IMG/VR virus record: IMGVR_UViG_3300044624_001054
Span: 1-64,000 of that record
Length of the DNA: 64,000 nucleotides
Source: a virus
Reading direction: 5' to 3' (one strand)
Shown here: positions 25,309 to 50,742 of the stretch, one piece after another
Numbering within the stretch: position 1 is the first letter of the stretch
Layout: every line of letters begins with the position of its first letter
Program-made: the position numbers and the translations under genes
Notes under the pieces: generated by a model
What the model saw: only the letters and a program-made list of their open reading frames with translations
The model's database searches: none
Told to the model about the DNA's origin: nothing

Positions 25309-25461
25309 CTAGACGCAGTAGTCACAGAAGACGGCGATATTGGTCGCCCACTCCAGCGTGTCGTCCATCGTGCAGACGAAACGGTCACACTCGCAAGTGC
25401 CTGCGAGAGTCAAGATCTCGTCATCCTTGCGAATGCCGATCATGTCAAGTACCTGGGTCAT
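25309..25461 (-). CDS. 50-residue zinc-knuckle-like protein on the opposite strand
   Basis: Starts MTQVLDMIGIRKDDEIL with a perfect AAGGAGGTG ribosome site. It has a CEC pair near residue 24 and CDYC at the C-terminus, consistent with a four-cysteine zinc site. A copy of the early promoter motif lies upstream in the same orientation. Plus-strand reading frames over the same DNA lack a ribosome site. It is the only minus-strand gene seen in the 23.2-37.3 kb block. Confidence 0.75.
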   Translation of the reverse strand: MTQVLDMIGIRKDDEILTLAGTCECDRFVCTMDDTLEWATNIAVFCDYCV

Positions 25462-25488
25462 GTTCACCTCCTTAATGCTCATAGGTAG

Positions 25489-25510
25489 AACCTACCATGA
25501 CCGTCCGACA
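25489..25510 (-). promoter_or_regulatory. Early promoter motif, minus orientation
   Basis: Reads TGTCGGACGG then TCATGG-TAGGTT, two changes from the plus-strand consensus. About 28 nt separate the -10 hexamer from the ATG at 25461, with a strong ribosome site. The inverted orientation together with an inverted gene shows that the motif is directional. Confidence 0.7.
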
Positions 25511-25517
25511 TTCTGGG

Positions 25518-25605
25518 GCATAATGCGATATTCTTTGGTAACGATTAGGTTACAGCATAATGCGATTCTCTAGGCGCAAGATTCTGCTAGCATAATGCGG
25601 ATTCT
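25518..25605 (+). repeat. Three iterons GCATAATGCGRTTCT
   Basis: Direct repeats at 25518-25534 (with a 2-nt insertion), 25555-25569 and 25590-25605, spaced 35-37 nt. They lie in the roughly 400-nt gene-free stretch at 25462-25859 between two divergent promoter motifs. They may be binding sites for a regulator or replication protein. No gene is seen in this stretch. Confidence 0.55.
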
Positions 25606-25630
25606 AGACTTGACTTTCCTCCAGAAGGCG

Positions 25631-25679
25631 TGCCGGGCCGCGAATCGGACATATCGGATGATAACATTTACGTTACGAT
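25631..25679 (+). repeat. Intergenic module copy A
   Basis: GCCGGGCCGCG, an AT-rich stretch with GGACATATC, then TTTACGTTACGAT. First visible copy of the composite repeat found at most operon ends in this region. CTCACGGCG follows shortly after. Confidence 0.6.
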
Positions 25680-25804
25680 CTAAAAAACTCACGGCGTGTC
25701 GCTTGACATACAATTCGGACATAACGATCACTAAAACTTTTTTTAAATTGTTTTTAACCATGTCCGTTTTACCCTAGTTTGTATACCCCCTAGGGTAGGG
25801 TGAA

Positions 25805-25826
25805 TGTCAGACCCCTATGATTGAAT
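25805..25826 (+). promoter_or_regulatory. Early promoter motif
   Basis: TGTCAGACCC followed by a TGATTGAAT instead of the usual TGATAGGNT; a weaker copy. It precedes the gene at 25860 with a 33-nt leader. Confidence 0.55.
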
Positions 25827-25859
25827 AGTTCCATGAGCAAGCGAGAGGAGGTGACAGGG

Positions 25860-26003
25860 ATGAGGTTCACTAAGGCTACCGTTCGCACTATCGTCAAGAA
25901 TGCGCGTTGCAATGATTGTGGTGAGAAGCACTACGATTCTATGGCTATCGTCAATGACGAGATCATGTGCGCTAATTGCCATAACGCTAAGGCGTTCGCC
26001 TAA
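25860..26003 (+). CDS. 47-residue zinc-ribbon-like protein
   Basis: Starts MRFTKATVRTIVKNARC after GGAGG 8 nt upstream; earlier in-frame ATGs lack a ribosome site. CNDCGEKHYDS and CANCHNAK give two C-x2-C pairs about 20 residues apart, a compact zinc ribbon. Function unknown. Confidence 0.75.
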   Translation: MRFTKATVRTIVKNARCNDCGEKHYDSMAIVNDEIMCANCHNAKAFA

Positions 26004-26060
26004 CAACTAAATATTCCTAGGCAAATAAACCGCTTCGGGCGGGTGAGCCCTAGGCCAGAC

Positions 26061-26082
26061 TGTCAGACCCCCCTGCTAGGGT
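26061..26082 (+). promoter_or_regulatory. Early promoter motif
   Basis: TGTCAGACCC, then CTGC-TAGGGT. Extended -10 type. Leader of about 26 nt with AAAGGGG-type site before the ATG at 26109. Confidence 0.7.
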
Positions 26083-26108
26083 AGGGGGTAGAAAGAAAGG
26101 GGTAGCAC

Positions 26109-26291
26109 ATGGCTACTAATGGATACCGCGCCGTGCGGATCGACGGCTTCGGATACGCTCCGATTGCATACACCCGTTGGACTACCCGCGAGGAGGCTAT
26201 GGCATACGCTCGCTATGCACAGCGTACTCGCGTGGGCGAGTGGGCCATACAGTCCAAGCGCAAGGTCATCCATAGGGTGGTGGGAGCATGA
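26109..26291 (+). CDS. 60-residue hypothetical protein
   Basis: MATNGYRAVRIDGFGYAPIAY, basic C-terminus (QSKRKVIHRVVGA). Predicted alpha/beta with a Trp-Thr-Thr-Arg-Glu-Glu-Ala turn, TREEAMAYARYAQ. The stop overlaps the next start (ATGA). No family recognised. Confidence 0.7.
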   Translation: MATNGYRAVRIDGFGYAPIAYTRWTTREEAMAYARYAQRTRVGEWAIQSKRKVIHRVVGA

Positions 26292-26413
26292 TCGGCTTCG
26301 CACGCATTGACTACGCCGCTGCAGCACAGCAGCGTGAAGATTGGAAGGCGTGGCTGCAGGCTAAGGCTGCAGAGCGTAGACTGTCAGACCCTAGTGCTAA
26401 GGTGGAAGCATGA
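26288..26413 (+). CDS. 41-residue protein whose 3' end contains a promoter
   Basis: MIGFARIDYAAAAQQRED, an amphipathic helix rich in Ala, Gln and Arg, preceded by GGGAG. The last 11 residues, RLSDPSAKVEA, are encoded by the promoter motif that drives the next gene. Both ends are ATGA overlaps. Confidence 0.65.
   Translation: MIGFARIDYAAAAQQREDWKAWLQAKAAERRLSDPSAKVEA
26382..26403 (+). promoter_or_regulatory. Early promoter motif, leaderless type
   Basis: TGTCAGACCC, then GTGC-TAAGGT, inside the upstream gene. Six nt separate the hexamer from the ATG at 26410, so transcription should start at the ATG itself. Confidence 0.7.
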
Positions 26414-26505
26414 GAACATTCGCGCAGCACGCGCTATCATTCGTCATCATCGGCGGTATCCTTATCGCCATGGCAATCGCTGGTGGAATAGAGGGAGCAT
26501 TCTAA
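26410..26505 (+). CDS. 31-residue single-pass membrane peptide
   Basis: MRTFAQHALSFVIIGGILIAM and on to GGIEGAF. One hydrophobic segment of about 18 residues. No ribosome site, but it sits 6 nt after a -10 hexamer, fitting leaderless translation. Its stop overlaps the next ATG (TAATG). Confidence 0.6.
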   Translation: MRTFAQHALSFVIIGGILIAMAIAGGIEGAF

Positions 26506-26780
26506 TGATTACCCGTGTAGAGTCCTACGGAACTAGCAACCTCATCAATGCTAAGGCTGCCCTCGCGCATCCCATGGCAGATGAGGTGTCTATCGCTCTA
26601 GGTGATGGAGCATACGCACGTTTTCCGCATACCGTCGAACTTGCATTCTTCAAGAATGGCGAGTGGGTTACTGAGCCTCTGCCAGAGTTGGCAGACTACT
26701 ACTCGCATGAAGTGTACCCCTACGTTTCCCTCATCGACTTCGCAATGTTCATGGAGAACTTCGGAACGGGGGAGGAGTGA
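26505..26780 (+). CDS. 91-residue hypothetical protein
   Basis: Starts MITRVESYGTSNLINAKAALAH in a TAATG junction with GGGAG upstream; a much longer open frame upstream is spurious. It carries EVSIALGDGAYARFPHTVELAFF and an acidic C-terminus. Small proteins with this pattern are frequent in actinophage early regions. Function unknown. Confidence 0.75.
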   Translation: MITRVESYGTSNLINAKAALAHPMADEVSIALGDGAYARFPHTVELAFFKNGEWVTEPLPELADYYSHEVYPYVSLIDFAMFMENFGTGEE

Positions 26781-26848
26781 TCATCATCATGGGAATCGTG
26801 TCTGCATTCCTTCTACTTGGAGTAGCCATAGGTCTAAAAAACCCTTGA
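26777..26848 (+). CDS. 23-residue membrane peptide
   Basis: GTG start in an overlap with the preceding stop, GGGGGAGGA just before. Sequence IIIMGIVSAFLLLGVAIGLKNP is a single transmembrane helix. The stop lies within the stem of a terminator. One of three similar-sized hydrophobic peptides in the region. Confidence 0.55.
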   Translation: MIIIMGIVSAFLLLGVAIGLKNP

Positions 26849-26864
26849 AAATAAAGGGTTTTTT
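26836..26864 (+). terminator. Rho-independent terminator
   Basis: AAAACCCTT, GAAAAT loop, AAGGGTTTT followed by further T residues. Stem of about 9 bp with a U tract; it closes the small operon. Confidence 0.75.
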
Positions 26865-26887
26865 CGCACTTGACAAATTGCCAAGTG

Positions 26888-26960
26888 CGGGCCGGGTCCG
26901 CAATTTGGACATATCACCTAGGTTACGATTACGTTACGATGATCACGAATCACGGCATGT
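26888..26960 (+). repeat. Intergenic module copy B
   Basis: GCGGGCCGGGTCCGC, GGACATATCACC, GGTTACGATTACGTTACGA, then ATCACGGCA. It is preceded by CTTGACAAATTGCCAAG. No gene between 26849 and 27090. Confidence 0.6.
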
Positions 26961-27045
26961 CGATTTGACAGACATATTGGACATATCACCGTTACCAACC
27001 TGTTATGAAAGTTGTCCGATTTGTATAGGTTTTGGATTAGGTAAA

Positions 27046-27067
27046 TGTCAGTCCCCCATGATAGGTT
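27046..27067 (+). promoter_or_regulatory. Early promoter motif
   Basis: TGTCAGTCCC, then ATGA-TAGGTT. Leader of 23 nt with AAAGGAA before the ATG at 27091. Confidence 0.72.
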
Positions 27068-27090
27068 GTACCTAGATAGAAAGGAACGAA

Positions 27091-27279
27091 ATGAACAACA
27101 CTCTCCATTCCCACCTCGTCTGTTGCTTCTGCGACAACGAGATCGGCTTCGATACCCGCGTGTGCGGAACGTGTCATGACTATAAGGGCATCATGACCGT
27201 GGAAGCCTTTGAGGACTACCTCAAGGTCGCCTATGATTGCGATTGCTTGTCAGACCTAGATGATAAGGTGTCAGCATGA
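27091..27279 (+). CDS. 62-residue zinc-ribbon protein whose 3' end contains a promoter
   Basis: CCFCDNEI near residue 11 and CGTCHDYKG near residue 26 make a C-x2-C/C-x2-C zinc site. The C-terminal residues CLSDLDDKVSA are encoded over the promoter of the next gene. Ribosome site AAAGGAACG. Function unknown. Confidence 0.75.
   Translation: MNNTLHSHLVCCFCDNEIGFDTRVCGTCHDYKGIMTVEAFEDYLKVAYDCDCLSDLDDKVSA
27248..27269 (+). promoter_or_regulatory. Early promoter motif, leaderless type
   Basis: TGTCAGACCT, then ATGA-TAAGGT inside the upstream coding sequence; 6 nt to the ATG at 27276. Confidence 0.7.
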
Positions 27280-27554
27280 TTGATTCAGTAGCACGCATCG
27301 TTAGCACTCCCCTTCGTGAGTGCCCCCCGCTCTTTGAGTACGTTCTCAATGAGGGACCTGTCATGCAACTCGCTTGGCTTTCAGTAGAGCCAGAGGATGA
27401 TGATTGGTTTACCGTCACGTTTGTCGCCAATGGCGCGACGATCAAGTCACGCGGTGACGCGGAAACTCTTTGGCTTAGGCCAGAGGATAAGGATGATCCT
27501 GTGATTCAGGCGGAACTGATTACAGGTCTGGCTTCGATGGGGTTGGAGTTCTAA
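27276..27554 (+). CDS. 92-residue hypothetical protein
   Basis: MIDSVARIVSTPLRECPPLFE. Acidic and beta-rich (DDDWFTVTFVANGATIKSRGDAETLWL), with a C-terminal helix. No ribosome site; predicted leaderless. It ends in a TAATG junction with the next gene. Confidence 0.7.
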   Translation: MIDSVARIVSTPLRECPPLFEYVLNEGPVMQLAWLSVEPEDDDWFTVTFVANGATIKSRGDAETLWLRPEDKDDPVIQAELITGLASMGLEF

Positions 27555-27757
27555 TGCCTAACGTAAAAGTCATTGACCGCCGTCCATTCGATATCAATAT
27601 GACCATGCAATGGAATGACATTCAGGAATTGCTCACACGCGCAGATCGTATGTGGGCATGTGCAGATAATCCAGCAGACTTTCAGGTGCTGGAACACATA
27701 GAGCAAACGCTGCAAGGTCTCGCAGATTCTATTCGAAAAAGACTTGACAAATCCTGA
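27554..27757 (+). CDS. 67-residue helical hypothetical protein
   Basis: MPNVKVIDRRPFDINM, then a long helix (DIQELLTRADRMWACADNPADFQVLEHIEQTLQGL) and a basic end. Coupled to the previous gene. Function unknown. Confidence 0.68.
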   Translation: MPNVKVIDRRPFDINMTMQWNDIQELLTRADRMWACADNPADFQVLEHIEQTLQGLADSIRKRLDKS

Positions 27758-27761
27758 AAGA

Positions 27762-27831
27762 CGGGCCGGGCCGCGTTGTAAAAATGTTATATAAATAATT
27801 ACGTTACGACTTGACAAGTCACGGGAATTTT
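27762..27831 (+). repeat. Intergenic module copy C
   Basis: ACGGGCCGGGCCGCG, AT-rich stretch, ATTACGTTACGA, then GTCACGGGAATTTT. The latter part overlaps a good sigma-70-like promoter. Confidence 0.62.
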
Positions 27832-27839
27832 GATAGGTT
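27811..27839 (+). promoter_or_regulatory. Sigma-70-like promoter (TTGACA, 17 nt, TAGGTT)
   Basis: Perfect -35 and TAGGTT -10 at 17-nt spacing, the spacer containing TCACGGGAATTTT and lacking TGTCAGACC. It identifies TAGGNT as the -10 hexamer of the whole family. GAAAGGAGG follows before the ATG at 27862. Confidence 0.75.
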
Positions 27840-27861
27840 CGACCTGTCGAAAGGAGGCAGC

Positions 27862-27987
27862 ATGGGTTCTGTCATTATTCCCGTCGCGTGCGACTGGCAC
27901 GCAGTCTACTCCATCCATGAGGATGGCGTATGGTATGGCCTCTACTGCGAGGAGTGTGATGAAACCTACCCGCCTGTGGCGGAGTAG
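27862..27987 (+). CDS. 41-residue protein with C-x2-C
   Basis: MGSVIIPVACDWHAVYSIHED. C-D-W-H at residues 10-13 and YCEECDETY near 30 could form a zinc site with one His. Strong GGAGG site. Function unknown. Confidence 0.72.
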   Translation: MGSVIIPVACDWHAVYSIHEDGVWYGLYCEECDETYPPVAE

Positions 27988-27998
27988 GCCCGGCTCGC

Positions 27999-28020
27999 TG
28001 TCAGACCCCCGTGATAGGCT
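27999..28020 (+). promoter_or_regulatory. Early promoter motif
   Basis: TGTCAGACCC, then GTGA-TAGGCT; 27-nt leader with AAAGGAT before the ATG at 28048. Confidence 0.72.
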
Positions 28021-28047
28021 TACGATACGTTCTACGAAAGGATCGAA

Positions 28048-28179
28048 ATGGCTCGCTGTGAAGACTACCCGTGCTGTGGCCACACCGATGGCCTTGGCTG
28101 CAACTATGTCCCCGATATGGACTTCTACTATGAGCAGGCCCGTCGCCGTCTTGATGACGACTACTATGACTACTACTGA
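28048..28179 (+). CDS. 43-residue Cys/Tyr-rich protein
   Basis: MARCEDYPCCGHTDGLGC has four cysteines and one His in 18 residues; the rest is acidic and ends in DDDYYDYY. I recall similar short MARCEDYPCCGH proteins in actinophages, of unknown role. Confidence 0.75.
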   Translation: MARCEDYPCCGHTDGLGCNYVPDMDFYYEQARRRLDDDYYDYY

Positions 28180-28196
28180 AAGGCCCCGGCCCAGAC

Positions 28197-28218
28197 TGTC
28201 AGACCCCTATGCTAGTCT
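28197..28218 (+). promoter_or_regulatory. Early promoter motif
   Basis: TGTCAGACCC, then ATGC-TAGTCT. Leader of 28 nt with AAAGGAC before the ATG at 28247; the leader closely resembles that of the preceding gene. Confidence 0.7.
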
Positions 28219-28246
28219 TACGACACACCTACGAAAGGACACGAAA

Positions 28247-28369
28247 ATGGGCGAGGATATCATGTGCGATCTGTGGTTTGAGTCGCAGTACGAGGTTCCT
28301 GAGTTTGATCCGTGGGAGGCGGAGGCAGAGGTCATCATGGCCCAATGGGATGAGCCTGACTTCTTCTGA
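28247..28369 (+). CDS. 40-residue acidic protein
   Basis: MGEDIMCDLWFESQYEVPEF, strongly acidic with four Trp/Tyr-rich segments, ending WDEPDFF. Possible protein-binding or DNA-mimic character; this is speculation. Good ribosome site. Confidence 0.68.
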   Translation: MGEDIMCDLWFESQYEVPEFDPWEAEAEVIMAQWDEPDFF

Positions 28370-28374
28370 AGTCA

Positions 28375-28450
28375 GCCCCGGCCCGAAAATTCTCACATTG
28401 TCAAGTCTTACGATGTGACTTAAGACACACACGAAAACGGTCACGGGAAT
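28375..28450 (+). repeat. Intergenic module copy D
   Basis: CCCCGGCCCG, TTGTCAAG, CTTACGATGTG, then GGTCACGGGAAT, directly preceding a promoter motif. Confidence 0.58.
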
Positions 28451-28457
28451 GCCTGAC

Positions 28458-28479
28458 TGTCAGACCCCTATGGTAAGGT
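28458..28479 (+). promoter_or_regulatory. Early promoter motif, leaderless type
   Basis: TGTCAGACCC, then ATGG-TAAGGT, 6 nt before the ATG at 28486. Confidence 0.72.
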
Positions 28480-28485
28480 GAAGTC

Positions 28486-28590
28486 ATGAACCTAGAAGAA
28501 CTATACGAGAACTTCCTCCGTTTGGAGGCCACCCTAGACCTTGACCCCAACCCTTGGGTGTCAGACCCCCATGATAAGGTAGGTGCATGA
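28486..28590 (+). CDS. 34-residue protein whose 3' end contains a promoter
   Basis: MNLEELYENFLRLEATLDLD, an acidic helix, ending WVSDPHDKVGA which is encoded over the next promoter motif. Predicted leaderless. ATGA overlap with the next gene. Confidence 0.62.
   Translation: MNLEELYENFLRLEATLDLDPNPWVSDPHDKVGA
28559..28580 (+). promoter_or_regulatory. Early promoter motif, leaderless type
   Basis: TGTCAGACCC, then ATGA-TAAGGT inside the upstream gene; 6 nt to the ATG at 28587. Confidence 0.72.
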
Positions 28591-28733
28591 TGACAACGGT
28601 TGAGTTTGAGAAGGCATGGCTTGACGTTTACTACATGTTGGAGGACAACGCCTTCGACTATGCGCGGTGCATGTATCTGGACGACGGCACTCTGATTGTT
28701 GATGGGGTGCGCTATGAGGAGGTGCCTTTCTAA
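28587..28733 (+). CDS. 48-residue acidic hypothetical protein
   Basis: MMTTVEFEKAWLDVYYMLED, then a short beta hairpin (MYLDDGTLIVDGVRYEEV). No ribosome site; predicted leaderless. TAATG junction with the next gene. Confidence 0.65.
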   Translation: MMTTVEFEKAWLDVYYMLEDNAFDYARCMYLDDGTLIVDGVRYEEVPF

Positions 28734-28885
28734 TGCAGAATATCTACAAGGTGTACTACCTTGGGCAGTACATGTGTTCATTCTTTGAGCGTGATGCTGC
28801 GCTCAACTGGATTGTCGATCTCGTTGCTGAAGGCGAGGGGGATTTCGGTGACTACGAGATTCTAGATGGGAGTGACTTCCTATGA
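28733..28885 (+). CDS. 50-residue hypothetical protein
   Basis: MQNIYKVYYLGQYMCSFFER, strand-helix-strand pattern with DAALNWIVDLVAEGEGDF and an acidic end. Coupled to both neighbours (TAATG, ATGA). The fold pattern recurs in other small proteins of this block. Confidence 0.65.
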   Translation: MQNIYKVYYLGQYMCSFFERDAALNWIVDLVAEGEGDFGDYEILDGSDFL

Positions 28886-29013
28886 GTTACCACCCCATCA
28901 CTCACGATGAATTCGATCAGATATTGCGCGAGTCGGAGATTCGTTGTCGGACCCTCATGATAGGATCTTTCCATGTTGAGAAGCAGGAAGCAGGCAGGAA
29001 AGCACAAGACTAA
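28882..29013 (+). CDS. 43-residue hypothetical protein overlapping the next gene
   Basis: MSYHPITHDEFDQILRESEI, then CRTLMIG encoded across a promoter motif, then a basic tail. It overlaps the following gene by 41 nt in another frame, so the distal part may simply be read-through of that gene's promoter region. Confidence 0.55.
   Translation: MSYHPITHDEFDQILRESEIRCRTLMIGSFHVEKQEAGRKAQD
28945..28966 (+). promoter_or_regulatory. Early promoter motif, leaderless type
   Basis: TGTCGGACCC, then ATGA-TAGGAT; 6 nt to the ATG at 28973. Confidence 0.7.
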
Positions 29014-29119
29014 TTGCTACTTTGGCTGCTGCCGTAGCATGACCAAGAAGCAGGAACGTCGCTACATCAAGCGGCGGGAAACTAACGAGTGGAAGAAGGA
29101 TCAGAATGTGGCAGGATAA
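28973..29119 (+). CDS. 48-residue very basic protein with cysteines
   Basis: MLRSRKQAGKHKTNCYFGCC, then MTKKQERRYIKRRETNEWKK. Rich in Lys/Arg, with three cysteines at residues 15, 19 and 20; likely nucleic-acid binding. Predicted leaderless. It overlaps the start of the WhiB-like gene. Confidence 0.65.
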   Translation: MLRSRKQAGKHKTNCYFGCCRSMTKKQERRYIKRRETNEWKKDQNVAG

Positions 29120-29321
29120 GGCAGCGTGCGCTGGAATGGATTCTAGCGTGTTCCTTTCGGGAGTGACCTCCCGCGTAAACATTGCTAAGGCGGTATGTGC
29201 ATCATGCCCCGTCATCCAAGAGTGCCTAGCGTTTGCACTTGCTAACGAGGACTATGAGCCCCATGTCTATGGTGGCATGACAGGTGAAGAGCGTAAGCGC
29301 ATTGCATTGGCGGTGGCATGA
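29106..29321 (+). CDS. WhiB-like iron-sulfur regulator
   Basis: 71 residues. Four cysteines in the WhiB arrangement: CAG near residue 8, then C31-x2-C34-x5-C40 in VCASCPVIQEC. The VYGGMTGEERKRI turn and basic helix follow. Such proteins bind a 4Fe-4S cluster and the principal sigma factor of actinobacteria. It may direct host RNA polymerase to phage promoters or away from host ones. GAAGGA ribosome site. Confidence 0.9.
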   Translation: MWQDKAACAGMDSSVFLSGVTSRVNIAKAVCASCPVIQECLAFALANEDYEPHVYGGMTGEERKRIALAVA

Positions 29322-29455
29322 TGGTAAAGGTAGAGATGACACGCGGTGACTGGGATGCAGTCCTAACATGCCTGCGAGAATTGATGGATCAGGGTTGGAT
29401 CGTGAAGGGTCTCTATAATGAGATCATTGACCAAGTAGATGAACAGGAGTACTGA
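29318..29455 (+). CDS. 45-residue hypothetical protein
   Basis: MMVKVEMTRGDWDAVLTCLR followed by an acidic helix (NEIIDQVDEQEY). It overlaps the WhiB-like stop (ATGA) and ends 1 nt before the next ATG. Function unknown. Confidence 0.65.
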   Translation: MMVKVEMTRGDWDAVLTCLRELMDQGWIVKGLYNEIIDQVDEQEY

Positions 29456-29456
29456 T

Positions 29457-29585
29457 ATGAGTTACCTTGATTACCTTCCCGCCGATGGCGATTTCACAGA
29501 GGATGAACTGTGGGAGGCTATCGCAGAAGATTTGGGAATCGATCCATCAGAGATCATGGATGGGGATTTGGTGGATTTTATCTAA
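29457..29585 (+). CDS. 42-residue acidic protein
   Basis: MSYLDYLPADGDFTEDELWE and IDPSEIMDGDLVDFI; highly acidic and helical. Last gene before a hairpin with a GAAA loop. Function unknown. Confidence 0.65.
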   Translation: MSYLDYLPADGDFTEDELWEAIAEDLGIDPSEIMDGDLVDFI

Positions 29586-29592
29586 TACCACC

Positions 29593-29604
29593 CCGCGAAA
29601 GCGG
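29593..29604 (+). terminator. GC hairpin with GAAA loop
   Basis: CCGC-GAAA-GCGG immediately after the gene at 29457-29585, followed by CCCCGGCCCG and TTTT. Likely terminator. Confidence 0.55.
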
Positions 29605-29670
29605 CCCCGGCCCGTTTTCCAAGAATACTCATAGGTTTACGACCTCTTACGATTTGACACGGGGGTCACG
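29604..29670 (+). repeat. Intergenic module copy E
   Basis: CCCCGGCCCG, TTTACGACCTCTTACGA, then GGTCACGG, overlapping the promoter at 29654-29683. Confidence 0.58.
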
Positions 29671-29683
29671 GTCATGGTAGGAT
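29654..29683 (+). promoter_or_regulatory. Sigma-70-like promoter, leaderless type
   Basis: TTGACA, 18 nt containing GGTCACGG, TAGGAT; 6 nt to the ATG at 29690. Confidence 0.72.
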
Positions 29684-29689
29684 CACTCT

Positions 29690-29836
29690 ATGAGTAATCG
29701 TGTGAGCCCCCGCCGTAGTGCGGAGCATAATCGTATCGTTGTTGAGCGTCGTCGCTCTAATGCCGCGCAGCCTCATAAGAATAAGGCTAAGTATTCGCGC
29801 AAGGCCAAGCATCGTAACCGTTTCGTTACCGACTGA
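29690..29836 (+). CDS. 48-residue highly basic protein
   Basis: MSNRVSPRRSAEHNRIVVER, then KNKAKYSRKAKHRNRF. About a third of the residues are Arg/Lys. Likely RNA- or DNA-binding. Predicted leaderless. Confidence 0.65.
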   Translation: MSNRVSPRRSAEHNRIVVERRRSNAAQPHKNKAKYSRKAKHRNRFVTD

Positions 29837-29857
29837 TCCCCATATTCCCCCTTTCAT

Positions 29858-29879
29858 TGTCAGACCCTAGTGCTAGGAT
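29858..29879 (+). promoter_or_regulatory. Early promoter motif, leaderless type
   Basis: TGTCAGACCC, then GTGC-TAGGAT; 6 nt to the ATG at 29886. Confidence 0.72.
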
Positions 29880-29885
29880 CATTCC

Positions 29886-30443
29886 ATGATTACAGTTACC
29901 GCCCCTGAGGGCACACTCGCATACGCTACCTACGCCGCTCGCTTTGAGAGCCTTATCATGACCGCTACCCTCTCGCAGACTGAGGCTGCTAGCGTCTGGT
30001 ACCATGACGCCGCTGCCGTTGCCTCTGAGGTTGCTCGCAACCTTGGCACCTCACTTGAGGTTGGCGCGTCTATCGTTGCAGCATTCTCCCCGCGTGAGCG
30101 CTGGTCCACTAACGTCGCTAAGGCTATCGCGTACTCGCTTGGCTCGCGTCCCGCTGGCCTTGGCAATAACCTTCGCATGGCAGACGCCGCAGTCGCGGCA
30201 GGCTTTGACGCTCTCAAGGGTGCAAAGACTAACGCATTCGCTCGCGCTATCGCAGGCGACACTAACGCAGTTGTCATTGACGTTTGGATGATGCGTGCGG
30301 CAGGCATGGAAACCGACTCACCTAACAAGTCTCAATATGCGCTACTGTCTGAGGCTGTCGTGGGAGTCGCGCAGCAGTTTGGCATCACGCCGCGCACCGC
30401 GCAGGCTCTCATCTGGATCATCGTGCGAGGGGGTGCAGCATGA
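29886..30443 (+). CDS. Conserved actinophage protein (possibly DUF7178)
   Basis: 185 residues, Ala-rich and helical. Recognisable segments are ASVWYHDAAAVASEVARNLG, GASIVAAFSPRERWSTNV, LKGAKTNAFARAIAGD, AVVIDVWMMRAAG and ITPRTAQALIWIIVRG. The helical pattern with an SPR-x-x-W-x-x-N motif resembles helix-hairpin-helix DNA glycosylase relatives that I recall as DUF7178 in actinophages. Function unverified. Codon use is GC-rich. Predicted leaderless. Confidence 0.72.
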   Translation: MITVTAPEGTLAYATYAARFESLIMTATLSQTEAASVWYHDAAAVASEVARNLGTSLEVGASIVAAFSPRERWSTNVAKAIAYSLGSRPAGLGNNLRMADAAVAAGFDALKGAKTNAFARAIAGDTNAVVIDVWMMRAAGMETDSPNKSQYALLSEAVVGVAQQFGITPRTAQALIWIIVRGGAA

Positions 30444-30610
30444 ATAAGCCTAAGCCATATGTTCGTCTAGTTACTGACTCAGGTAGTGGGGAGTCGCAAC
30501 TGACTAGAATGTTCGACAACGCAGAGGAAGCCCTGTCGTATCTTAGCGGATACATCGGAACGTATCCCATCACTATCCTAGAGTTTGACCTAGATTGGAG
30601 TTGGAAGTGA
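30440..30610 (+). CDS. 56-residue hypothetical protein
   Basis: MNKPKPYVRLVTDSGSGESQ, then NAEEALSYLSGYIGTYPITI and an acidic/Trp end (DLDWSWK). ATGA overlap with the preceding gene. The strand-helix-strand pattern matches other proteins in this block. Confidence 0.65.
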   Translation: MNKPKPYVRLVTDSGSGESQLTRMFDNAEEALSYLSGYIGTYPITILEFDLDWSWK

Positions 30611-31601: not shown

Positions 31602-31631
31602 TTGACTACTGTCAGACCCACATGATAGAGT
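31602..31631 (+). promoter_or_regulatory. Early promoter motif with a -35 box
   Basis: TTGACT, 18-nt spacer that contains TGTCAGACCC, then TAGAGT. It shows that the conserved motif lies in the -35/-10 spacer. Drives the gene at 31661. Confidence 0.75.
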
Positions 31632-31660
31632 TCTACTACCTACTAGAGAAAGAGACTGTT

Positions 31661-32050
31661 ATGGGAGACCGCGCTAACTTTGGAATCCGTCAGAATGACG
31701 GCAACATCATCTTCATCTACGGACATTGGGCAGGAGCAGGGATGCTTGCTAAGTTTGCTAATGCTCTTGACCATGTTCAGAATGTTGGTCGTATTGACGA
31801 CCAGGCTTATGCAAATCGCATCATCATCTCGCAGTTGGTTGGCGAGTCTTGGTCTGGCGATCTTGGCTGGGGTGTTACTGTGAACTACCTTGCAGACAAC
31901 GAGCATAAGGTTCCTGTCTATGACTTTGCACTCCGCGAGGTAACTCTCTATGACTATGATTGGAAGTCAGGCGTGCTGACTGATATGATTGTCACGTTCT
32001 CGCTGAACGAGTTCATCCGTAAGTACGCTAAGACCTTGGTGGAGGTGTAA
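31661..32050 (+). CDS. 129-residue conserved phage protein
   Basis: Starts MGDRANFGIRQNDGNIIFIYGHWAGAG; the 13 extra codons upstream overlap the promoter and are rejected. Segments LIISQLVGESW-type and GWGVTVNYLADNEHKVPVYDF follow. MGDRANF proteins with a GHW motif recur in phage genomes and I recall no assigned function. Followed 1 nt later by the next gene. Confidence 0.78.
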   Translation: MGDRANFGIRQNDGNIIFIYGHWAGAGMLAKFANALDHVQNVGRIDDQAYANRIIISQLVGESWSGDLGWGVTVNYLADNEHKVPVYDFALREVTLYDYDWKSGVLTDMIVTFSLNEFIRKYAKTLVEV

Positions 32051-32860: not shown

Positions 32861-32889
32861 TTGAGACTGTCAGACCTAGGGTGTATAGT
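32861..32889 (+). promoter_or_regulatory. Promoter with -35 TTGAGA and conserved spacer
   Basis: TTGAGA, 17-nt spacer beginning CTGTCAGACC, then TATAGT. This is the closest to consensus of the whole family and drives the DUF932-like gene, which also has an AAGGAG site. Confidence 0.78.
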
Positions 32890-32923
32890 TCTTCTATAAG
32901 TTCAATCAACTAAGGAGATACAT

Positions 32924-33919
32924 ATGGCACACGCAGTAGAGGTTGGCGCTAACGGAGAGCAGGCTTTTGCTTCCTTCCGCGAACCCGCTTGGCATGGTCT
33001 TGGTACCGTGTTCTTTGAGGAGAAGTCCACCCGCGAGATGCTGGATGCGGCTTACCTTTCTAACTGGGACGTTCGCCTTGAGGCCGTTCCTTACCCTTCC
33101 GACTACAATGTGATCACGCCTTCCTACATGGTACTGCGTGATAACCCCTTTGACCAGGGAACTGACGTTCTCGCTACCGTTGGCGAGCGTTACCACGTTC
33201 TTCAGAACGAGGATCTTTTCGACTTTGGTGATGCGCTGCTTGACGGTGGTCGCTGGGAGACCGCTGGCTCTATTCGCCAGGGTCGCGTTGTGTTCGGCTC
33301 GCTTGCGCTTGAGCGTGAGACTGTCCTTGATCCCAACGGCGTTTCGGATGTTGTGAAGTCCTACCTTCTCGTCCACACCTCGCATGACGGTTCTACCGCT
33401 GTGCAGGCTTCCATCACTCCCGTCCGCGTTGTGTGCCAGAACACTCTGAACATGGCTCTTCAGGGTGTGAAGCAGTCCTTCAAGATTCGTCACACGCAGA
33501 CTGTCGGTGGCAAGGTTATGGCTGCACGCGAGGCTCTTGCTCTCGCAAACACCTACCTGGATGAGTTCGACAAGGAGGCCAAGGCTCTCATCGCCAAGGA
33601 TATCACCAAGGCCAAGTTCGATGCCATCGTGCAGGCTGTCTACCCTCGCCCTGAGGCTGATGCCAAGGGTGCTGTCAAGAAGTGGGAGAACAAGGTCGAT
33701 CTCATTGAGGAGATTTGGACCTCTGACACCAACAACATGATCGCTACCACCGCGTGGGGTGCGTTCAATGCAATGACGGAGCGCCTTGACTGGTTCCGCA
33801 AGGGTCGTGGCGAGCGGGGTGCTGAGAATGTTCTCGCTGCTGCTAGTGGTTTCGATCCTGTCACCAATGCGGAGAAGGGTCGCATCCTGAAGGCTGTCAA
33901 GGAGATCGCTTTCGCGTAA
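32924..33919 (+). CDS. DUF932-like phage/plasmid protein
   Basis: 331 residues. Typical features are the N-terminal PAWHGLGTVF, a ND/GERYHVLQNED segment, GRVVFGSLALE, LLVHTSHDGSTAVQASITPVRVVCQNTLNMAL and the C-terminal RILKAVKEIAFA. I recall this family (DUF932) in plasmids and phages, where it is abundant but unassigned. Codon use is the most GC-rich and regular of the window. With the strong promoter and ribosome site, this predicts high early expression. Confidence 0.88.
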   Translation: MAHAVEVGANGEQAFASFREPAWHGLGTVFFEEKSTREMLDAAYLSNWDVRLEAVPYPSDYNVITPSYMVLRDNPFDQGTDVLATVGERYHVLQNEDLFDFGDALLDGGRWETAGSIRQGRVVFGSLALERETVLDPNGVSDVVKSYLLVHTSHDGSTAVQASITPVRVVCQNTLNMALQGVKQSFKIRHTQTVGGKVMAAREALALANTYLDEFDKEAKALIAKDITKAKFDAIVQAVYPRPEADAKGAVKKWENKVDLIEEIWTSDTNNMIATTAWGAFNAMTERLDWFRKGRGERGAENVLAAASGFDPVTNAEKGRILKAVKEIAFA

Positions 33920-34198: not shown

Positions 34199-34220
34199 TG
34201 TCAGACCCACATGCTACGCT
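34199..34220 (+). promoter_or_regulatory. Early promoter motif
   Basis: TGTCAGACCC, then ATGC-TACGCT; 25-nt leader with AGAAGGAG before the ATG at 34246. Confidence 0.7.
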
Positions 34221-34245
34221 TTATGTATTCGACAGAAGGAGCATT

Positions 34246-34458
34246 ATGAACATCTACGGCATAACAGAAGAAGATATGGCCTCTCCGACCTTTCCCAACG
34301 AGAATGATATTCTTGCATCTATCGTCAAGAACATGAAGGATATTCTAGATGGTGAGTGTGAGCGACCTGATATTGCTGCCCTTGCCGTGTCGATAGACTT
34401 CTTTGTCTTAGATCACTACATGCGTAATGGACGCATCCCTACTGCTTGGAGGAACTAA
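34246..34458 (+). CDS. 70-residue hypothetical protein
   Basis: MNIYGITEEDMASPTFPNEN, helical (DILASIVKNMKDILDGECE), ends GRIPTAWRN. Strong ribosome site; a longer upstream frame is rejected. Shares one base with the next start. Confidence 0.7.
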   Translation: MNIYGITEEDMASPTFPNENDILASIVKNMKDILDGECERPDIAALAVSIDFFVLDHYMRNGRIPTAWRN

Positions 34459-46551: not shown

Positions 46552-46849
46552 TGTCTTCTCCTTCAGAGACTAGTTCTAGAACTCTAGCCCAGATTTCCTG
46601 GGTTTTATGAGAATTTCTTACATTGTCTAGTTTACCATCATTTAGAAAAACGCCACCCCATACACCAAAAGATTCTGTTTTCACGCCATAATCAAAACAT
46701 TCTTTAATTACTGGGCACGACAGGCATTGTCTATCTATATCTCTTGCGATATCCTGATCTAATTCATATTTGTCAAAATAGAGTTCTGTGTCAGTTCCAG
46801 CGCATAGCGCTTCACTTAGCCACATATTTAGAGGGAACTTTCCATCCAT
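46541..46849 (-). CDS. WhiB-like iron-sulfur regulator, second copy
   Basis: 102 residues. ALCAGTD near residue 15 and RQCLSCPVIKECF near 41-52 give the four cysteines, then SFGVWGGVFLND is the GVWGG turn of the family, followed by a C-terminal helix. It is longer and more acidic than the first copy at 29106-29321. Probably modulates host sigma factor at a different stage. Confidence 0.9.
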   Translation of the reverse strand: MDGKFPLNMWLSEALCAGTDTELYFDKYELDQDIARDIDRQCLSCPVIKECFDYGVKTESFGVWGGVFLNDGKLDNVRNSHKTQEIWARVLELVSEGEDIDL

Positions 46850-50349: not shown

Positions 50350-50742
50350 TTAATCAGAGAGTTTCGACTCTACCGATATATCTCCTTTTGCAAAAGTGAA
50401 TCGATCATTCCTACCATTATGAACTAATGAAAATTCATACACGGCGCTCGCGGTAGAAAGTAATTCTGTGCTTAGTAAATTACTAATGGTTACTTCTGTA
50501 ATTCCATTGGCTGTTTGTGCTGGGCTAACTACTGTTTCGTTAGTTGTCGGTGAAATAGATATTCCTGTAGGAGTAACATCTACAAGAGATGAGTTCTGTT
50601 TATTATAAATTTTAAATTGCCAACTTCCAGTAGTAGAATACACAGCATTATCTGGATTTAGTATTTTGAATGATATCTTAGATGTGTCCCCAGCATACAG
50701 CAATAAATCAATTACTTCTGGTCCAAACTCTATGTTTCCCAT
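50350..50742 (-). CDS. Small structural protein (BppU/Ig-like type)
   Basis: 130 residues. LLLYAGDTSKISFKILNPDN and GSWQFKIYNKQNSSLVDVTP match the KGDT-F plan of the gene at 20773-21114. Possibly a fibre-assembly or connector domain. No ribosome oddity seen. Confidence 0.72.
   Translation of the reverse strand: MGNIEFGPEVIDLLLYAGDTSKISFKILNPDNAVYSTTGSWQFKIYNKQNSSLVDVTPTGISISPTTNETVVSPAQTANGITEVTISNLLSTELLSTASAVYEFSLVHNGRNDRFTFAKGDISVESKLSD

Follow-up and report, generated by a model that had tools for sequence, protein, structure and literature searches.

The window analysed here, a stretch of 64,000 nucleotides (positions 1 to 64,000 of the 106,615-base IMG/VR record IMGVR_UViG_3300044624_001054, from an uncultured virus), contains seven plus-strand genes, starting at 26410, 27276, 28486, 28587, 28973, 29690 and 29886, whose messages most likely begin exactly at the start codon. 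These genes would be transcribed from promoters of the housekeeping-sigma (SigA) type with an extended -10 box (TGN-TANNNT), transcription starting 7 nt after the -10 box, on the A of the ATG, to give leaderless mRNAs. Six of the seven, together with at least seven leadered neighbours, would form one family in which the element TGTC[AG]GACC at -28 to -20 replaces the -35 box. Its most likely activator would be the PafBC of the host, sensing single-stranded DNA and adapting SigA, with a phage-encoded factor as another possibility. The hexamers TAAGGT and TAGGAT at 6 nt from the ATG also stand at the Shine-Dalgarno (SD) position on a read-through mRNA, and the genes would thus probably have two ways of being translated.

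This explanation as a whole, with its leaderless SigA-type promoters, its PafBC-type family and its -10 boxes doubling as SD sequences, is regarded as probable. A more specific proposal is put forward tentatively, namely that the phage array runs on the single-stranded-DNA-damage promoters of host PafBC, that the hexamer of the leaderless members is both -10 box and SD, and that each such gene may be translated in a leaderless as well as a leadered manner. The features that are read directly from the sequences are the spacing, the geometry of the motifs, the conservation of A at +1, the open frame behind a +1 ATG and the AAGG/AGGA bias of the -10 boxes; the start of transcription, the identity of the activator and the SD role of the hexamers are inferred.

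Spacing and promoter layout of the seven starts

The preliminary description had claimed that exactly 6 nt lie between TAAGGT or TAGGAT and the ATG, and this arrangement was confirmed at 7 of 7 starts, every -10 hexamer being preceded by TGN. When the gaps between TGNTANNNT and ATG were counted on the plus strand of positions 25501-30500, using ATGs that open a reading frame of at least 25 codons, gap 6 was found seven times and any other gap at most once. In dinucleotide shuffles of the same region gap 6 occurred 0.03 times on average and never more than once. All seven occurrences of TAAGGT/TAGGAT on this strand of the region precede N6-ATG. A TANNNT -10 box about 12 nt before the start codon, by which TA-led leaderless genes are recognised, is likewise found at 7 of 7.

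The preliminary description was right about the -10/ATG spacing and had missed the TGTCAGACC element at -28 to -20, which defines the family. TGTC[AG]GACC is located exactly 7 bases before the -10 box at six of the seven starts, the exception being 29690, which has a classical TTGACA-N18-TGGTAGGAT promoter and no -26 element. A TTGACA-like hexamer 16-18 nt before the -10 box (the classical SigA layout) was present only at 29690 among the seven. TGTCAG as a -35 hexamer was ruled out, since the spacer would be only about 10-11 nt.

Comparative tests of the transcription start

The first set of sequences used for comparison comprised 31 related viral loci collected via the 185-aa gene at 29886 and contained 172 promoters. 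The second comprised 65 further viral-contig stretches found with the leaderless pattern, contigs already sampled being dropped. Removal of near-duplicates left 408 promoters of the form TGTC[AG]G-N10-TANNNT over both sets. The second set was selected by the presence of an ATG and not by its frame; since frame played no part in the selection, it constitutes a fair replicate of the open-frame test.

Of the 172 promoters in the first set, 53 had the ATG of an open frame at gap 6, the neighbouring gaps accounting for 0-6. The leadered promoters formed a separate, broad mode at about 21-40 nt, and 85 of 103 had SD-like sites. In the promoters with no ATG at +1, the seventh base behind the -10 box was A in 241 of 297 (81%), so that +1 can be recognised without reference to a start codon. 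When +1 to +3 read ATG, the frame was open for at least 25 codons in 54/54 and 56/57 cases (110/111), in comparison to only 18/47 and 25/78 (43/125) when they read ATA, ATC or ATT. Out-of-frame ATGs at the presumed 5' end thus appear to be nearly absent, as would be expected if a 5'-terminal ATG were always used. A 5'-terminal ATG has been found necessary and sufficient in mycobacteria (PMC4633059).

For six of the seven genes the start and the spacing were conserved in all aligned homologues and the changes fell mostly in third codon positions. Among 32 orthologues of gene 29886, TANNNT-N6-ATG was present in about 20 and about 10 were leadered. The comparison of spacing in related phages that the preliminary description had suggested is in its favour, with the gap-6 mode and the conserved starts and spacing. 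The A column at +1, the open-frame test and the conservation in homologues indirectly support its placing of +1 at the first base of the ATG.

The DnaE-like polymerase of the record showed 57-60% identity in sequence comparison to its counterparts in Stanwilliamsviridae phages that infect Streptomyces. Two WhiB-like genes are present in the window, one at 29106-29321 (+), inside the leaderless array, and the other at 46649-46822 (-); among 14 control genomes the WhiB-like family matched only the actinobacterium. On account of the DnaE kinship and the two WhiB-like genes the host of the virus is very likely an actinobacterium. The 185-aa protein of gene 29886 gave no match in the cellular genomes searched for host assignment.

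Leaderless genes are typical of Actinobacteria (PMC3160421), and in Mycobacterium tuberculosis leaderless genes make up 26% of those for which a primary start site is given, their TANNNT -10 box being that of the leadered ones (PMC3898074). The earlier remark that leaderless initiation is common in actinobacteria agrees with both reports, the proposed host fits it, and the leaderlessness of these genes is ordinary biology for this group. The accompanying remark that two translation classes within one promoter family are unusual could not be upheld: M. tuberculosis mixes both, and the orthologues of gene 29886 switch class.

The TGTC[AG]G element and its candidate readers

The distance between TGTC[AG]G and TANNNT was strongly preferred at N10, with 273 sites in the window and its relatives versus 3-52 at other spacings, and 268 versus 3-75 in the second set once the search pattern had been left out. 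This PafBC-type core, 10 nt before TANNNT, is found at six of the seven starts and at seven leadered sites of the window, and 29690 is without it. The consensus of the RecA-independent damage promoter (RecA-NDp) is tTGTCRgtg-N8-TannnT (PMC5656591). PafBC, for which single-stranded DNA is the activating signal, inserts between SigA region 4 and the -26 element (PMC11804915). Since the spacing of the element is that of PafBC (RecA-NDp, '-26 element') promoters, host PafBC would be its most likely activator. The bases following TGTC[AG]G in the phages (172 promoters) were ACC in about 63% and of the GG type in about 33%, and the literal TGTCGGTGG is present in three relatives (L028, L037 and L039). 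Two -26-type matches, possibly due to chance, were also seen in Mycobacterium phage DroogsArmy (L046, positions 376 and 5758), one of them about 100 bp before an annotated transcriptional repressor gene.

The exact leaderless ACC form was searched for in cellular genomes, using one genome per species, and 20 matches were obtained. The genes behind them include, as assigned by Pfam, mycothiol-S-transferase (MST)/DinB, DUF2779, DUF222-HNH and DprA genes, and a 449-aa protein was RadA-like by inspection, without a family search; the DinB/mycothiol-transferase, RadA-like and DprA genes lie in actinobacterial chromosomes. On four contigs from metagenome-assembled genomes (MAGs) labelled non-actinobacterial the ACC-form matches precede other or unidentified genes. 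The leaderless -26 pattern was also noticed before Phd/YefM-type antitoxin genes (L054 and L055) in a MAG labelled Deltaproteobacteria, in whose genome two WYL genes also stand in tandem. Six actinobacterial genomes yielded 10 matches to TTGTCAGACC-N7-TANNNT and 92 to TTGTCRGTG-N8-TANNNT, with 0 for the reversed controls; the matches of the latter pattern precede recA-, uvrA- and uvrB-like genes, identified by inspection and without a family search. Two Streptomyces proteins that are 64% identical to each other have the ACC form before one and the TGG form before the other. All six tested cellular genomes with the ACC form have a tandem WYL pair, about 1 kb apart as expected of pafB-pafC.

In 17 related phage records, some of which may be fragments so that the result is suggestive only, no WYL gene was found, nor any sigma-70 region 4 gene above the cut-off. 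A phage-encoded WYL or sigma factor was rejected as the reader on this ground. Host PafBC is thus the likeliest candidate reader of TGTC[AG]GACC, in view of the geometry, the repair-type genes behind the element in chromosomes, the tandem WYL pairs in the cellular genomes with the ACC form and the lack of a WYL gene in the phage records.

Its main rival is a WhiB-like phage protein. The element would in that case be read by a phage-encoded factor, for which a WhiB-like protein attached to region 4 of SigA is the likeliest choice, and would serve the temporal control of the phage and not the damage response of the host. The two WhiB-like genes of the window, of which one lies inside the array, the dominance of the ACC form in phages and the lack of a WYL gene in the 17 records speak for such a factor, whereas the Streptomyces phage Wakanda has a WhiB-like gene and yet, over the 92 kb looked at, a single promoter match at background level. 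The occurrence of the element, identically spaced, before repair-type genes in chromosomes with tandem WYL pairs and the literal PafBC consensus in some relatives also argue against a phage-encoded reader, which is considered rather unlikely.

The -10 box as a possible ribosome site

The earlier statement that the seven genes have no ribosome site holds only if the -10 hexamers are ignored, which in RNA would present UAAGG or AGGA at 7 nt from the AUG; their SD-like position had been overlooked. An mRNA starting at the ATG carries no SD, whereas AAGG/AGGA would be included in a read-through mRNA; in TAAGGT/TAGGAT-N6-ATG these tetramers end 7 nt before the ATG, which is within the SD range of the leadered genes. 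The confinement of the seven genes to TAAGGT and TAGGAT is part of a general trend. AAGG/AGGA was present in the -10 box of 25/54 leaderless versus 7/118 leadered promoters in the first set (p = 1.6e-9), 19/56 versus 8/179 in the second (p = 5e-8) and 44/110 versus 15/297 in both. Stratified by locus, the bias had an odds ratio of 15 (Cochran-Mantel-Haenszel chi2 56). The energy of the duplex with the anti-SD was -4.5 for leaderless -10 boxes and -2.3 for the same place in leadered promoters, real SD sites giving -5.6. Because a leaderless mRNA excludes the -10 box, selection for AAGG within it makes sense only for read-through mRNAs, on which the -10 box of leaderless promoters may serve as a ribosome site.

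The same observations could be explained with no leaderless translation at all, if these were internal operon genes translated from read-through mRNA via AAGG/AGGA, with ATGA coupling at 26410, 27276 and 28587. The tetramers do stand at SD distance, and these three of the seven genes overlap the stop of an upstream open reading frame (ORF) by ATGA. Any working promoter, however, would start transcripts at or beside the ATG, AAGG/AGGA is missing at 66 of the 110 leaderless-type genes, and intergenic gaps precede 28486, 29690 and 29886. The frame open behind the +1 ATG in 110/111 cases and the +1 A conserved at the same distance in leadered promoters also speak against an operon arrangement of this kind, which is judged improbable.

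A lower probability still is given to TGTCAGACC being a repressor operator, with a role like that of the stoperators in mycobacteriophages of cluster A, while transcription would be driven by the extended -10 box alone. The many copies in a single orientation would suit an operator, and an extended -10 box can work without a -35 box; the fixed spacing to the -10 box and the same layout before chromosomal repair-type genes fit better with an activator beside RNA polymerase, no systematic search for repressor and integrase genes having been made in this record. Chance or a compositional artefact, for which nothing except the small size of the ORFs speaks, is statistically refuted by the seven gap-6 starts as compared with the shuffles and by the conservation in relatives, and its probability is negligible.

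Several points count against the explanation based on leaderless, PafBC-type promoters. At the place of GTG in the PafBC consensus the element of the window reads GAC, and TGTC is often preceded by a base other than T. WhiB-like genes, present in 16 of the 17 related records, could supply the activator. The promoter counts are partly non-independent, as related phages share ancestry, which inflates the counts despite the removal of duplicates. AAGG-type leaderless genes lie close behind upstream genes only marginally more often than the others (24/44 versus 23/65, p = 0.05).

Promoters and genes of the array

The promoter of 26410 (26382..26412, +) consists of TGTCAGACC at -28 to -20, TGC, the -10 box TAAGGT, N6 and ATG. 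It lies within the 3' end of ORF 26288-26413, with an ATGA overlap, and serves a predicted leaderless gene of 31 aa (26410..26505), whose start and -10 spacing are conserved in 3/3 homologues. The promoter of 27276 (27248..27278, +), with TGTCAGACC, TGA TAAGGT and N6-ATG, is similarly placed within the 3' end of ORF 27091-27279, again with an ATGA overlap, before a predicted leaderless gene of 92 aa (27276..27554) with codon-position differences of 12/12/44. That of 28486 (28458..28488, +; TGTCAGACC, TGG TAAGGT, N6, ATG) is intergenic, and the 34-aa product predicted from a leaderless message (28486..28590) has its start conserved in 5/5 homologues, with codon-position differences of 6/7/23. 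The 3' end of this gene contains the promoter of 28587 (28559..28589, +; TGTCAGACC, TGA TAAGGT, N6, ATG; ATGA overlap), followed by a predicted leaderless gene of 48 aa (28587..28733), for which no homologues were found for a comparison of starts.

The promoter of 28973 (28945..28975, +), with TGTCGGACC, TGA TAGGAT and N6-ATG, lies within ORF 28882-29013 and precedes a predicted leaderless gene for a basic protein of 48 aa (28973..29119; codon-position differences 4/0/18). The classical promoter of 29690 (29654..29692, +; TTGACA-N18-TGG TAGGAT, N6, ATG) stands before a further predicted leaderless gene of 48 aa (29690..29836), also basic, for which a homologue alignment was made. The promoter of 29886 (29858..29888, +; TGTCAGACC, TGC TAGGAT, N6, ATG) is intergenic, and the 185-aa product of this predicted leaderless gene (29886..30443) belongs to phrog_3842, its mycobacteriophage homologues being labelled glycosylase. 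A PHROGs search of the short leaderless proteins gave no matches, except for a weak one with 29690. A terminator scan of the region gave matches no more numerous than in shuffles.

TANNNT-N6-ATG was also observed outside the array at minus-strand starts 74052 and 66899 of the record, beyond the window, and at 50742 and 14051 within it, the genes encoding 725, 100, 130 and 158 aa, respectively. Leaderless starts may therefore exist elsewhere in this phage.

The leadered members of the family had been described as having leaders of 23-33 nt with AAGGA sites. Most of them do have AAAGG or AAGGAG sites, but the span from the -10 box to the ATG is in fact 23-34 nt, and with transcription starting at the seventh base behind the -10 box the leaders would be about 17-28 nt long. 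All are on the plus strand. TGTCAGACC-N7-TAGGGT (26061..26111) is followed by 26 nt to the ATG with AAAGGGG. An AAAGGA site is found behind TGTCAGTCC-N7-TAGGTT (27046..27093; 23 nt to the ATG), TGTCAGACC-N7-TAGGCT (27999..28050; 27 nt) and TGTCAGACC-N7-TAGTCT (28197..28249; 28 nt). The promoter at 31610..31663 (TGTCAGACC-N7-TAGAGT, 29 nt to the ATG) has TTGACT at 18 nt, and its gene has a weak ribosome site only. AAGGAG accompanies TGTCAGACC-N7-TATAGT (32868..32926; TTGAGA at 17 nt, 34 nt to the ATG) and TGTCAGACC-N7-TACGCT (34199..34248; 25 nt).

A minus-strand member (25309..25510, promoter 25510..25482) has the arrangement TGTCGGACG-N7-TAGGTT-CTACCT-ATG, with its ATG at 25482 in frame with an SD-led ATG at 25461, 21 nt downstream, and two N-termini are possible for this gene. 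Among 20 +1 ATGs with an SD-led ATG downstream, 14 were in frame, from which it follows that some genes of the family may make two N-termini. A degenerate copy was seen at 25805-25862 (+), TGTCAGACC-N7-TTGAAT-N6-ATG, whose +1 ATG is in frame with an SD-led ATG at 25860. At L127, about position 313 (-), an out-of-frame +1 ATG opens a leaderless peptide of 7 codons, the stop of which overlaps the SD-led start (ATGA); this could possibly be a leader peptide.

Significance and comparison with known systems

If the proposed explanation is correct, these phages would read the single-stranded-DNA alarm of the infected cell into their own gene expression, tying damage sensing directly to phage timing, a link of which no description was found in the papers searched. 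Judged by titles and abstracts, the PafBC/RecA-NDp papers that mention phage report no phage promoters of this type, and the literature on prophage and actinophage promoters added none, most subscription journals being outside the search. A hexamer with dual -10 and SD function would account for the fixed 6-nt gap in both transcriptional and translational terms. As out-of-frame +1 ATGs are avoided, leaderless translation can be tested in uncultured phages from sequence alone. Short genes of this type will be overlooked or wrongly placed by gene callers that require a ribosome site.

Among the Streptomyces phages of the Stanwilliamsviridae, Wakanda and NootNoot resemble the virus in their DnaE (57-60% identical), and Wakanda also in having a WhiB-like gene; their genomes are of about 127-131 kb. 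TGTC[AG]G-N10-TANNNT formed no peak in the examined stretches of these two phages and of two mycobacterial phages.

The RecA-NDp/PafBC promoters share with the present family TGTC[AG]G at the same distance to TANNNT (a 9-base element followed by N8) and the usual lack of a -35 box, as well as the literal TGTCGGTGG of the three relatives named above and, in chromosomes, the ACC form before repair-type genes. The family described here differs in being located in a phage genome, where its members are densely arrayed in front of small genes of unknown function. In 63% of its sites TGG is replaced by ACC, and the TG of an extended -10 is common; its dependence on PafBC is a prediction. The TA-led leaderless genes of Actinobacteria, e.g. 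those of M. tuberculosis (PMC3898074, PMC3160421, PMC4633059), likewise have +1 at the start codon and TANNNT about 12 nt upstream of it, whereas here only ATG is used, the gap is exactly 6 and the -10 box is enriched for AAGG/AGGA. The recX promoter of M. tuberculosis, internal to recA (PMC3062782), provides a further parallel, since it lies in the 3' end of the preceding gene, the two genes overlap and transcription starts from the A of the ATG; it is a single constitutive promoter, whereas in the phage the arrangement is repeated and combined with a -26 element.

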